A stretch of 64,000 bases of DNA, from assembly GCA_002118135.1 (NCBI GenBank), contig BDIU01000156.1, positions 194,231-258,230 on the forward strand, given 5' to 3'. This DNA is from Trebouxia sp. TZW2008. Taxonomy: Eukaryota > Chlorophyta > Trebouxiophyceae > Trebouxiales > Trebouxiaceae. Position numbers and translations under genes: made by a program. Below the pieces are notes generated by a model that worked only from the letters and a program-made list of their open reading frames with translations, had not been told where the DNA came from and did no database searches. How positions within the stretch are numbered: the first letter of the stretch is position 1; each line of letters starts with the position of its first letter. Shown here one piece after another: positions 5,252-64,000 of this stretch.

Positions 5252-8200
5252 CTATACAGCCTGGGAAGATGCACTGAGTCTTGATGATGACTGACCGCCA
5301 CGCAGGATCCTTTGAACATCTGGGCTGACGCCGTTGAGCTCATCTGGATACCAGTTGAACAGGGGTGGTAGCGGTCGCCCTGCAGCAGCAAAACAGCTGT
5401 GTCACAACCTAATTGCAATCAGCGATCCTTGACATTGGACAAAGCCCAGAGAAAGCTATCCTGTGCTCAAGCAACAACACTATTCAAGATGATATCATGG
5501 AGTCAAGAACCTTATGCACCAGACTAGGGACGGAGCAACTGTTATAAAAGGGCAGCCGCCGTAAGCAAGCTAATTGCAAAGCCCATTATGAACAGCGTGG
5601 TGTTGAAACAGATATGCAGACCACAACCTGTGCTGTTGACAGGACTCAGGGGATGGCGACCATGCAGTGCGAGGCTGCTGATCTCAGCAAGAGGACTGAC
5701 CGTTTGGAAGGGTGGTGTTGGGGTCTCTGAGCTCATCAAAGAAGGGGTGTGTGAGGGCCCCTATGGCTGTCACCCTTGTCACAGGACTGTAATGCAACAG
5801 CTTGGACACCTACGCACAAAATCAGCCTGTATCAAAATGCTTGTGCAGCTGTCTCAGCATACTTGCTTGCAGCCAGGCATGTAGGCACAGAAAACAAAGC
5901 AGCGCCAGGCAGCACAAGCTTGGTCACCTGTGCACAGAAACAGCCTGTGTCACAAAGCTTGTTGAGTTATTTGGGTGTACTACCATATGCGTGGTGCAAA
6001 CATGATGACAGGCAAAACAGTAATACCGGATAGCAGCAGCAGAGACCAAGATGTGCTTCACATCTCTGCAGAGAGGTTTGTCACTGACTACATTGTTCAA
6101 GAAGATGTACAGCATTGACATGACTGAACTGTTATCAAGAGAGCATGCACTTGTCTCAAACGGGATCAAGGAAAGCCGGAAGTCATGGCCACAGCAACAA
6201 CGAGTTAAGACAATTGCGAGAGATTGTAAATGCACGTTGGCTGCACAGCAGACTAAGAAGAGCCTCGTTAGGACTGTGTACAGCTTTGCTGTCAACCCAC
6301 TGGCTATCACATGGGTGTGAAAGCAACAGCATGGTGAGGCACTGCACTGGAACGACATCTTCTCATGATTGATATTAGCATGAAGAAGGCGTGCATACCA
6401 GGTCGACTGCATCAGGAGGCATGCGCTTGCTGAAGACCTTGCTCCAGGGGTGCGCTGTGATCTTGGGGAACTTGAACTCGGTGTAGTTGGGGTTCATGCT
6501 GTAGATCTCCTCACGTGTGGGCGTGCCCAGCACCTTGATGATCTCTACTAGCTGATCCACCCCACTCTCACCTGCACTTTGCATTGTTGCTTGGCAAGAT
6601 GCTTGCTTAAGACATTTGTTCCAGTCAGATTTGCGTTGTATGCCTTGCATTGTCTGCAGCTATTCATATGCCATGGCAGATGATGACATATTTCACTGTA
6701 AAAGACAACATTGCACTGTTCAAGTCGCTGCCTTATGATGCGGCAGAATGAGTGTAATAAGGGATGAGAAATACAGACTACATGACAGCCACAGCAGGCT
6801 CGCAAGGGCTGACAGCAGAGGCTGAAATCAACAGCTTCCAGGGCCTCCTTCATAACATTGGTACCTTTGGGACAGTCCAAAGAGGCCACTGTGGCTGCAG
6901 GCCACAGCCTTCTGCCTGAGATGTGTGCTGCGACTGACTAGCAGTGAGAGACGGCATGAGGAAGCACACCACAGGATGCGTCGATGTATGAAATGCAGAC
7001 AAAACAGCAGATGCCGTGACAAGACAGTCAGAGGCTATCGGAGGGACTGACCTGGGAAGATGGGTTTGCCTAGGAGCAGCTCTGCCATGACACAGCCCAC
7101 TGACCACACGTCTATAGCGGCTGTGTAGTCTGTTGCGCCAAATATCAACTCGGGCGCCCGGTAGTACCTGCATCAGTAGTCAGCAGTCTTCAAGAGCCGC
7201 TGGGACAGATTGGAGCCTGGTGCATGATTAGCACGCAGGGACAGCAGTTGCCTATATTGGCTTACAGATCGTCTAGACTTGCCGTACCCAAGGCTATTAG
7301 CCCAATCTAGGAAGGGCTTTGTCAAAGCACAATGAATGGCAGATTGTGAGACTGCACAGCATTGTTTCAGATTGCGTTAGGCAGGCAGTCAGTCCGTTGC
7401 TCAAGGAGGGACAAGTTATGAGATGTGAGATGCAAAATGCGCTTGTATATTTGTACAGAACAAAGATAAATGCCGCAATGAAGATAAAGCTTGACTGACA
7501 ACAGATAAGTCTCAATCAGTCTGATTTTAATGCCAGAACATGGCAATGACCACTTTGTCACGCGGTCTACAACACAGAGAAGCCCTTCAGCAGCCGGCAC
7601 ATGGCTAGCGTCAGTAAGACACATTCAGAGCATGATATTGCAATGACACAGGGGTCAATTTTGAAAAAGAAGAGTCTTAGACAGCTGACCTGGAGCAGAT
7701 GTAGGAGATGTTGGGCTCGCCCTTCATGAGCACCTTGGCGCTGCCGAAGTCACACAGCTTGAGCTGGTGGGTGTGCGTGTTCACCAGCAGGTTCTGCGGC
7801 TTGATGTCGCGATGGCACACCTGCATGCTGTGGATGTGTGCCAGCGCCCGGCACATCTGCAACGCAATATAACAGTGAGCTCAGCGCCCAGCACTTCTGT
7901 GGTCACAACAAAGAGCCCATTAATCTCAACTAATTCATGCACAACCAGTTTGCAAGGCTGATGAATTGAAGCTTGACGCTTTGTTTACGCGTTAAGTATT
8001 GCAGACGAGACGAGCCAGTTGAAGCCAAATTGTACTGATAAGACCAGGTTGAAACCACAGCAATTTGATCTGTTGAATTGACCTGGTAGACTTGCAGCTT
8101 GACAGAGAGGGTGGGCATTCTTTGGCCGTTCTTGGAGTAGTGCTTGCCGATGCGCTAGACAGTCTCTGGCACATACAACAACAATGCATTGCACACTGTT

Positions 8201-62800: not shown

Positions 62801-64000
62801 GCACTCATGTAGTGAGCCTGAACCAACTGAAATCCAAGCAAATCCTGCATCATGCGCAGCAAATGTATGGACTATAAGTCTCTACAACTTTTTGCAGAGC
62901 ATGTTGAGGCCATTGACCCCAGCCAAAGCCCTCAAGGTCCTGAAGCACAAGTGGGAGCACCACTTTGACAAGCAGGTCAGTCTTTGGCATTGGCATCTTG
63001 GTTTTCTGTTGAACTCACACGAATGGCAAGCTATTTGACATAGCACTGCTTTGAGCTGATTTATTGCAGCATTCTGCAGCCTCACACAGATGCTTACATG
63101 CTTCCAGTGATGCATAGCTTGCACTGACTCCACATGTTGGCTTCATAAGATTCAGCAGGCCTGTTGATCAGCACTCGCACATGCTGCCAGCATTTCTGCA
63201 AGTATCTTGCATGGCTCATTCACATGACCAGCTGTGCATCGCAGTCAACATGACCAATTCTGCATGTTGACCCAAGCAATGAGTGTGTGTGAAACGCTGT
63301 GTGCGCGCTGCAGACAGCAGGTGGCGCTGATGTGAAGGTGCCAGGCTCTGAGCCAATCACACAAGAGCGCCCAGTGAGTCTCTTGCTGTTACTGCTGTTG
63401 ATGAGTCATAGATGAAGTGCTGCATCTACGCACGTTTGTTGCCAACGTGGCAAGGGCTTACAAGCATCAAGAACACACACAGTCTTGCGTGATCCATGGT
63501 TGCCTTCAGAGCTCAGCAAATCGAGCAAGCAAAAGCAATGGCTTGCACATTGTCATTGGTCTCAGCGCGCACCACGTGGAATGATGCATCACAGCATTAG
63601 GATCATTACTCAGATGCATCGCAGCCTTTCTGAGCATGTAGTGCTGAGGCGACCACCCCATGACCTGCAAGCTTTGTTGTTGCAATATAACACGAGCAGC
63701 ACCTTCAGATGCCAGACATGTGACAGCTTTGTTGGTCACAATGCAATGCGTCAGCAATGTGATATGCATGCTTTGCTGTTGCAGTATGACATGAGCATTA
63801 CCTCTGAGAGTCAGCAGCGCCAGCCGGAGCCTCAGCCCATCCCCTCAGCAGCCCCTCAGCACTTGTCAAATCTCACTCAGAGGCGGCCAGCTGAGTATGA
63901 CTCAGCTCCAGGGCAGTACACTGCATCAGCCTCAGGGGCAGGGCAGTACCAGGGGTCAGGCGCAGGACAGTATCAGGGGTCAGGAGGGCTGTACACTAGT
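56899..64000 (+). CDS. DUF3754 (TMEM143-like) protein, 14 exons visible, 3' end outside window
   Basis: Exons: 56899-57169, 57242-57332, 57414-57487, 57855-57988, 58402-58542, 58883-59008, 59207-59323, 59790-~59999, 60640-60807, 61844-62078, 62387-62526, 62898-62975, 63314-63373 and 63785-64000 (open). This gives 687 codons so far, all phases consistent. The N-terminus is Gln-rich. The conserved region has RFISVPTTDLIEAF, FERFSDICKLFEANSRLDF, RVQDNFRLFSAAAKG, FNMPIEVKWDVMDTLLLARF, VVKSFSDVPMADVEMIFPEK and two hydrophobic helices (PFVLIQLIVTVILAVITVV and an Ala/Ser helix near 61850). It continues with EVIIAYAVLL, DKRCEMWLERIFGLRLDFAI and LKVLKHKWEHHF. DUF3754 proteins of plants and algae are predicted membrane proteins of unknown function. 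The C-terminus entering at 63785 is Gln/Gly/Ser/Tyr-rich with a GAGQYQGS repeat. The donor at 59999 is weak (CCT|GTGGAT). Confidence 0.88.
59388..59418. repeat. 12-bp tandem repeat, about 2.5 copies
   Basis: CTGTACAGTAGC is repeated twice with a third partial copy, in a DUF3754-gene intron. Confidence 0.85.
60050..60325 (+). repeat. Two relics of the 3' part of DUF3754 exon 59790-59999
   Basis: GCCCAAGTACAGCAAGGCAA recurs at ~60063 and, diverged, at ~60256 with the following bases for the Ser-Arg-Thr-Asp segment. Both are downstream of the real exon. Confidence 0.85.
61404..61480 (-). repeat. Inverted relic of the 3' part of DUF3754 exon 60640-60807
   Basis: Read on the minus strand, the copy encodes FILLIVTVLLTVITVVTNLL, closely matching FVLIQLIVTVILAVITVVTT of the true exon. 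It continues through the donor into GTCAGCTCT (true: GTGAGCTCT). It is the only relic found in inverted orientation. Confidence 0.9.
61711..61785 (+). repeat. Relic of the 5' part of DUF3754 exon 61844-62078
   Basis: It reads SKVSLFVLASIAAVRAAQVW and then hits a stop. The true exon reads SKVNLSVLASMASIAAARAA. The acceptor TGCAG is retained, 133 bp upstream. Confidence 0.92.
63665..63712 (+). repeat. Relic of the 5' part of DUF3754 exon 63785-64000
   Basis: GCTTTGTTGTTGCAATATAACACGAGCA matches the intron end and exon start GCTTTGCTGTTGCAGTATGACATGAGCA. The AG acceptor is changed to AA. It is 112 bp upstream. Confidence 0.88.

Follow-up and report, generated by a model that had tools for sequence, protein, structure and literature searches.

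The 64,000-nucleotide stretch of Trebouxia sp. TZW2008 DNA analysed here (contig BDIU01000156.1, positions 194,231 to 258,230, labelled G000:C151:194231-258230; hereafter the window) is part of a 68.5-Mb assembly of 527 contigs and contains genes whose introns hold partial copies of the neighbouring exons. These exon-flanking copies have most likely been left by tandem duplications of about 150 bp that arose in place again and again, throughout the genome and not on exons in particular. The copies are read directly in the DNA; from their pattern we infer the history of duplication.

How often does an exon lie beside a partial copy of itself? We used 46 exon cores, taken from whole-genome profile matches and one N-terminal GDH reading frame and defined independently of the copies. 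Five CCT genes (L024–L028), taken blind with chaperonin identity as the sole criterion, supplied 32 of them, and the window 14 (PP4R3, six; GDH and ALB3, three each; DUF3754 and GSK3, one each). Every core was searched against its own 1.5-kb flanks at E<1e-3, the flanks of other sources serving as the control. The own flanks contained 28 partial copies, 27 direct and one, in DUF3754, inverted; the foreign flanks gave 7 matches in 1710 core–flank pairs. The direct copies adjoin 13 of the 46 cores on 16 exon sides, with 20 copies upstream (10 sides) and seven downstream (six sides). Among the 32 blind CCT cores, four had direct copies in this search and a fifth (CCT 270-320) showed a short overlap in a self-comparison; no local direct repeat was found in a sixth CCT gene (L029, seven cores). 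The initial annotation of the window had claimed that exons have partial copies of themselves at their flanks, and this is borne out, in the blind CCT genes too. Its figure of over 30 relics is plausible, since further pairs lie outside the 46-core count (GSK3 8076-8176 with 8283-8383, and those of the PP4R3 exons near 25457 and 27558). For DUF3754, where it had also listed relics, the single core has an inverted copy and no direct copy was found. The profile of the DDL C-domain (PF07478) had no match anywhere in the genome.

The direct copies have a fixed geometry. As first scored, 19 of the 20 upstream copies fell in the 5′ half of the core and all seven downstream copies in the 3′ half. The lone outlier involved GDH 45129-45293, where the hidden Markov model (HMM) match began inside the intron and contains a stop. 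By eye this exon starts at about 45267 (minus strand), and the outlying copy covers positions 10-143 of its 181, that is, the 5′ part. With this one start corrected, the adjoining part of the exon is present in all 27 direct copies, upstream copies the 5′ part (20/20) and downstream copies the 3′ part (7/7), as had been proposed for the window; an exon 3′ end occurs in none of the 20 upstream copies. This geometry argues against copying to scattered places or in random orientation. Exactly such a layout results when a tandem duplication crosses one splice site and an intact exon is kept; the arrangement therefore follows from tandemness and the survival of the gene, and no exon rule is needed.

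The steps may be pictured as follows. A tandem duplication of about one nucleosome length (centre 150 bp) would arise in place and could strike anywhere in the genome. Where it spanned one splice site, function could persist only in the copy still continuous with the remaining exon, and the other would be stranded in the intron and decay. An event across the acceptor would leave the acceptor and the exon 5′ part upstream of the intact exon; one across the donor would leave the exon 3′ part and the donor downstream. Repeated events would produce arrays. The copies and exons concerned are listed here in window coordinates.

8076–8176, minus strand: GSK3 downstream partial copy; holds the 3′ part of the exon and the donor (GTCAAT) and has a TAG in frame; 90% identical to 8283-8383.
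8283–8383, minus strand: 3′ end of the functional GSK3 exon, donor CAG|GTCAGT, sequence read; the neighbouring exon has a kinase profile match at 7701-7868.
20991–21213, plus strand: PP4R3, two upstream copies (140-bp units), acceptor region plus 5′ part of exon 21269-21379; one copy lacks the AG.
23354–24162, plus strand: PP4R3, five-copy upstream array (mostly 200-bp units), acceptor plus 5′ part of exon 24239-24358.
24239–24358, plus strand: intact PP4R3 exon adjoining the array; profile match 24248-24364, splice sites read from the sequence.
25015–25298, plus strand: PP4R3, two upstream copies, 5′ part of predicted exon 25457-25605 (home-made gene finder).
26743–26813, plus strand: PP4R3 upstream copy, acceptor plus 5′ part of exon ~26926-27154; profile and own-flank match.
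27382–27459, plus strand: PP4R3 upstream copy, acceptor plus 5′ part of predicted exon ~27558-27642 (home-made gene finder).
28001–28048, plus strand: PP4R3 upstream copy, 5′ part of exon 28103-28249; acceptor AG lost.
30424–31550, no strand assigned: long decayed tandem array, unit ~153-177 bp, from self-comparison.
44166–44657, minus strand: GDH, three upstream copies (168-187 bp units), acceptor plus 5′ part of exon 43761-44120; 44340-44471 matches the profile.
45339–45470, minus strand: GDH upstream copy, 5′ part of exon ~45087-45267.
47678–47764, minus strand: GDH downstream copy, 3′ part of the N-terminal frame 47868-48623.
50824–50997, plus strand: ALB3, two upstream copies, 5′ part of exon 51146-51352.
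51400–51469, plus strand: ALB3 downstream copy, exon 3′ part plus donor.
52668–52705, plus strand: ALB3 upstream copy, 5′ part of exon 52735-52950.
53016–53308, plus strand: ALB3, two downstream copies (169-175 bp units), exon 3′ part plus donor GGTGAGT; protein profile match 52961-53119.
61404–61468, minus strand: DUF3754, the sole inverted copy, 3′ part of exon 60634-60831.

The home-made gene finder, hampered by weak codon bias, was used for the two PP4R3 exons so marked and for no others. Two of the copies are detectable by protein profile without any DNA alignment, GDH 44340-44471 and ALB3 52961-53119, the latter below the family cut-off. Elsewhere in the genome, the kinase exons G000:C73:131817-132422 and C130:70887-71249 are each preceded by a further profile match that corresponds to the same 5′ part, that of C130 with a stop; these copies, known from the protein level, are likely to be further examples.

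Is the duplication a matter of exons, or of the genome at large? The genome sample comprised 26 chunks (260 kb), namely window positions 4001-64000 and twenty 10-kb stretches of other contigs; the window's first 4 kb have a different structure, with inverted repeats, and were excluded for that reason. Compared with itself, the sample gave 239 direct and 8 inverted matches, forming 101 clusters that cover 12.0% of the bases. Five shuffles of it gave no match, and 50 kb of E. coli no cluster. The start-to-start distance (the smallest per cluster) has 5th, 25th, 50th, 75th and 95th percentiles of 84, 118, 150, 172 and 223 bp, and the spacing lies between 63 and 259 bp in 99 of the 101 clusters. 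Simulated units of 80-1500 bp were detected in 97-100% of trials at a per-copy divergence of up to 0.10 and in 57-100% at 0.14; limited detection thus does not explain why units stop near 260 bp. Units of 60 bp were detected in 50-97% of trials. At 25-45 bp the BLAST self-search recovered no simulated units, and a separate scan with 32-base segments was run in addition: it gave 408 matches, 262 at offsets of 100-219 and 9 at offsets below 60, while one shuffle gave none. Direct repeats were present in 15 of the first 16 random stretches, and the cluster density of the sample, 0.39 per kb, compares with 0.41 in the blind CCT genes. The high frequency of local duplications that had been suggested for the window thus holds across the sampled genome.

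Which observations weigh against recurrent in-place tandem duplication as we have described it? Pairs more than 90% identical are few, and near-identical units are restricted to some arrays (L019, offset 168; L005, offset 130). Clusters at exon boundaries are commoner in all eight genes taken together than expected after correction for detection (19 of 24 against 38%, p 5e-5). The involvement of nucleosomes or Okazaki fragments, taken up below, is drawn from a single property, the unit size. The most serious difficulty lies between the copies. Only 30 of the 101 clusters are essentially head-to-tail (gap <25 bp); in the other 71 at least 25 bp separate the matched blocks. Among pairs of at least 85% identity, an unmatched spacer is present in 83% of 18 (arrays excluded; block length half the period) or in 88% of 24, whereas simulated tandem duplication followed by substitutions and small indels left one in 3-8% of such pairs. 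Spacers resembling their own flank at p<=0.05 number only 11 of 71. Whole spacers are no closer than random to their expected partner (p 0.15), in a gapped-identity comparison whose random baseline near 0.72 leaves it little power. Some blocks end sharply on both sides, for example L008 4191-4485 and L018 271-450. As a full account, plain tandem duplication with neutral decay therefore fails for the unmatched spacers that most high-identity pairs have. As to the near-identical units, they indicate that the activity is not only ancient, and for that reason we dropped the idea that the process has now stopped.

Either the intron parts decay faster than we modelled, or some duplications were born with a spacer. 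The second possibility, that many copies arose as direct repeats at a set distance around a non-duplicated internal sequence and not as tandem units, we consider rather unlikely. Candidate routes are faulty Okazaki-fragment maturation (‘alternative duplications’), template switching and filler DNA; unprocessed 3′ flaps, as a preprint reports, give duplications with internal sequence between the units (PMC12633238), and the sharp block ends and the unmatched spacers of high-identity pairs would be explained. Against it, the unit size of fully tandem clusters is matched by the start-to-start distance of the partial ones and not by their block length: the period does not differ between the two kinds of cluster (Kolmogorov–Smirnov p 0.42), but the partial block lengths do (p 4e-8). 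Residual similarity past the block is above chance, reaching at least the 95th percentile of random in 11 of 69 right-hand and 10 of 68 left-hand flanks. For the exon pairs it extends beyond the block in 8 of 17 cases on the intron side and in 1 of 17 on the exon side (Wilcoxon p 0.035), and in several exon alignments the similarity on the intron side fades through indels. A fold-back origin predicts inverted spacer matches; these occur at p<=0.05 in 3 of 69, the chance level, and fold-back spacers are rejected. Introner-like mobile elements would make the inserted sequence a repeat family; seven of the 71 spacers have non-self matches (14 in all), two of them (L012 and L018) to several other contigs. 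A mobile element with long target duplications is unlikely, 64 of the 71 spacers being without a non-self match in the sampled sequence, about 0.4% of the genome, a coverage at which low-copy families could be missed.

Are exon–intron boundaries targeted, for instance by exon-placed nucleosomes or splicing-coupled breaks? In the eight genes, 19 of 24 clusters span one boundary and 5 of 24 are purely intronic, where random placement expects 33% at a boundary; the corrected expectation cited above allows for easier detection beside a conserved exon. No cluster lies wholly within an exon (0/24, 14% expected), as is to be expected under purifying selection. The excess would favour targeting, but it is confined to the window genes, which were included because the pattern was evident there. 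In the blind CCT genes (six, L029 included), 6 of 9 clusters are at a boundary against 49% expected (p 0.34), so their boundary share fits random placement, and their density equals the sample average. We therefore read the data as showing no targeting of exons, the boundary excess being due to the choice of genes. Purely intronic clusters also count against targeting, which we judge very unlikely; a rule specific to exons, as originally put forward, is not borne out.

If the copies are by-products of duplication, do they decay as such? Copy–exon mismatches number 78, 69 and 161 at the first, second and third codon positions (12.2, 10.9 and 25.6%), and 14 of the 15 indels in these alignments shift the frame. 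By eye, 14 of 18 acceptor copies keep their AG and 6 of 7 donor copies their GT, together 20 of 25; a 26th alignment was dropped as unclear. This survival of 80% compares with 77% expected at 12% neutral divergence. When two units of the PP4R3 array are compared, identity is 83% in the exon-like part and 91% in the intron-like part; the exon-like part being the less conserved, the copies do not look protected. The mismatch, indel and splice-site data fit a neutral copy beside a constrained exon. The retained splice dinucleotides, together with a 2.2-fold excess at third positions that slightly exceeds a simple neutral-copy estimate, could be taken to mean that selection maintains the copies as decoy or alternative exons that regulate splicing. 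The frameshifting indels, the near-neutral splice-site survival and the PP4R3 comparison all argue the other way, and we rejected selection on the copies as highly improbable. Two further proposals of the initial annotation are supported: that local duplications recurred with one end in an exon and the other in an intron, and that the copy lying outside decays.

An assembly artefact of misjoined or duplicated reads, for which one might cite the two-base N gap in a poly-C tract of the window, has a negligible chance of being right, as the copies differ by many substitutions and indels (67-98% identity in the cluster pairs) and direct repeats are present in 15 of the first 16 random stretches.

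By what molecular step might the recurrent in-place duplications arise? Opposite-strand breaks about one nucleosome apart might be filled in and joined end to end, or a nucleosome-sized Okazaki flap might be wrongly ligated. The size of Okazaki fragments is generally set by nucleosomes. Both ideas suit a unit size centred on 150 bp. Two loci in the genome match Ku profiles, which makes end joining possible. It is conceivable, if tentative, that a nucleosome-sized duplication engine is rewriting the genome of this lichen alga, at some 0.4 detectable clusters per kb, so that most of its intron sequence consists of degraded duplicates, either of the introns or of adjacent exon ends, and decoy splice sites keep arising. 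Should nucleosomes determine the size peak, the genome would be a natural record, with many events of different ages, of a duplication pathway that has been elusive in the laboratory. The copies would be a concrete source of intron growth and of cryptic splice sites, each with its original exon context, and measurable mis-splicing is predicted. Annotation pipelines could mistake many of them for exons or protein repeats.

The window and the sample hold further repeats. Window positions 1-3320 contain clustered repeats, direct and inverted, that are 61-97% similar and unlike the remaining window; in a genome search with its first 1200 bases (two candidates scored), all the matches among those listed lay within the same contig stretch. 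An intron of PP4R3 contains a nested foldback (22410-22562; arms of 35 and 40 nt, 90-91% complementary) shaped like a miniature inverted-repeat transposable element, with no second copy among the matches listed in a genome search (one candidate scored). A complex array at 46127-47148 nests an 11-bp inner repeat in units of 136-161 bp. A short dispersed element occurs at window 40224-40290, L005 6472-6549, L017 3479-3547 and L026 1785-1861, 83-89% identical between contigs. A second short dispersed family, 71-90% identical (L012 4312-4430, L018 2408-2532, L019 9899-9998, L020 539-717, L023 4472-4586), also supplies one of the spacers. The poly-C tract lies at 32205-32263 and has the only two N in the window. 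Positions 54709-56250 (minus strand) encode a DnaJ-domain protein 66% identical to one from Trebouxia sp. C0010. ARAGORN, in its bacterial setting, found no transfer RNA in the window.

How does the pattern compare with known systems? A literature search over titles and the openings of abstracts, with most subscription papers outside its scope, found no account of the genome-wide pattern among the papers listed, and the word ‘tandem’ is absent from the main text of the Trebouxia sp. ‘A48’ genome paper (PMC12712428). The individual ingredients have been described. Faulty Okazaki-fragment maturation (rad27/FEN1) is reported to give insertions of up to 100 bp flanked by direct repeats (PMC5677150, PMC12633238). 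Its ‘alternative duplications’ (PMC12633238) have internal sequence between the units; in Trebouxia 83-88% of the high-identity pairs show an unmatched spacer, for which decay of the intron parts may also account. The duplications of these reports are described in mutants or inhibited cells (PMC5677150, PMC12633238). The nearest published case that the search turned up is a potato gene in which a single duplication across an intron–exon boundary created a new intron (PMC4974935). That duplication likewise spans the 3′ side of an intron and the 5′ side of the next exon, and in Trebouxia too the splice-site region and the adjoining exon part are copied while the intact exon is retained (27/27; the dinucleotide in 20/25 by eye). 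The potato case is, however, a single event that made an intron, whereas in Trebouxia many events have apparently lengthened existing ones.

Small tandem duplications, which arise when breaks with long overhangs are filled in and their ends joined (PMC8355091, PMC5730883), have been described, directly or by citation, in mammalian cells, rice and Arabidopsis (PMC8355091, PMC5730883; Vaughn & Bennetzen 2014 as cited there). Like them, the Trebouxia duplications are direct and in place, with 239 direct against 8 inverted matches and a close spacing of 63-259 bp in 99 of 101 clusters; theirs are attributed to nearby opposite-strand nicks, fill-in and non-homologous end joining. The insertions in PMC8355091 are short, below 100 bp, in contrast to Trebouxia units that centre on 150 bp, almost never exceed 260 bp and occupy 12% of the sampled bases. 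In PMC5730883 the breaks were made by Cas9 nickase 46 nt apart. Small tandem duplications are already known as a kind; it is their density and unit size in Trebouxia that appear unusual.

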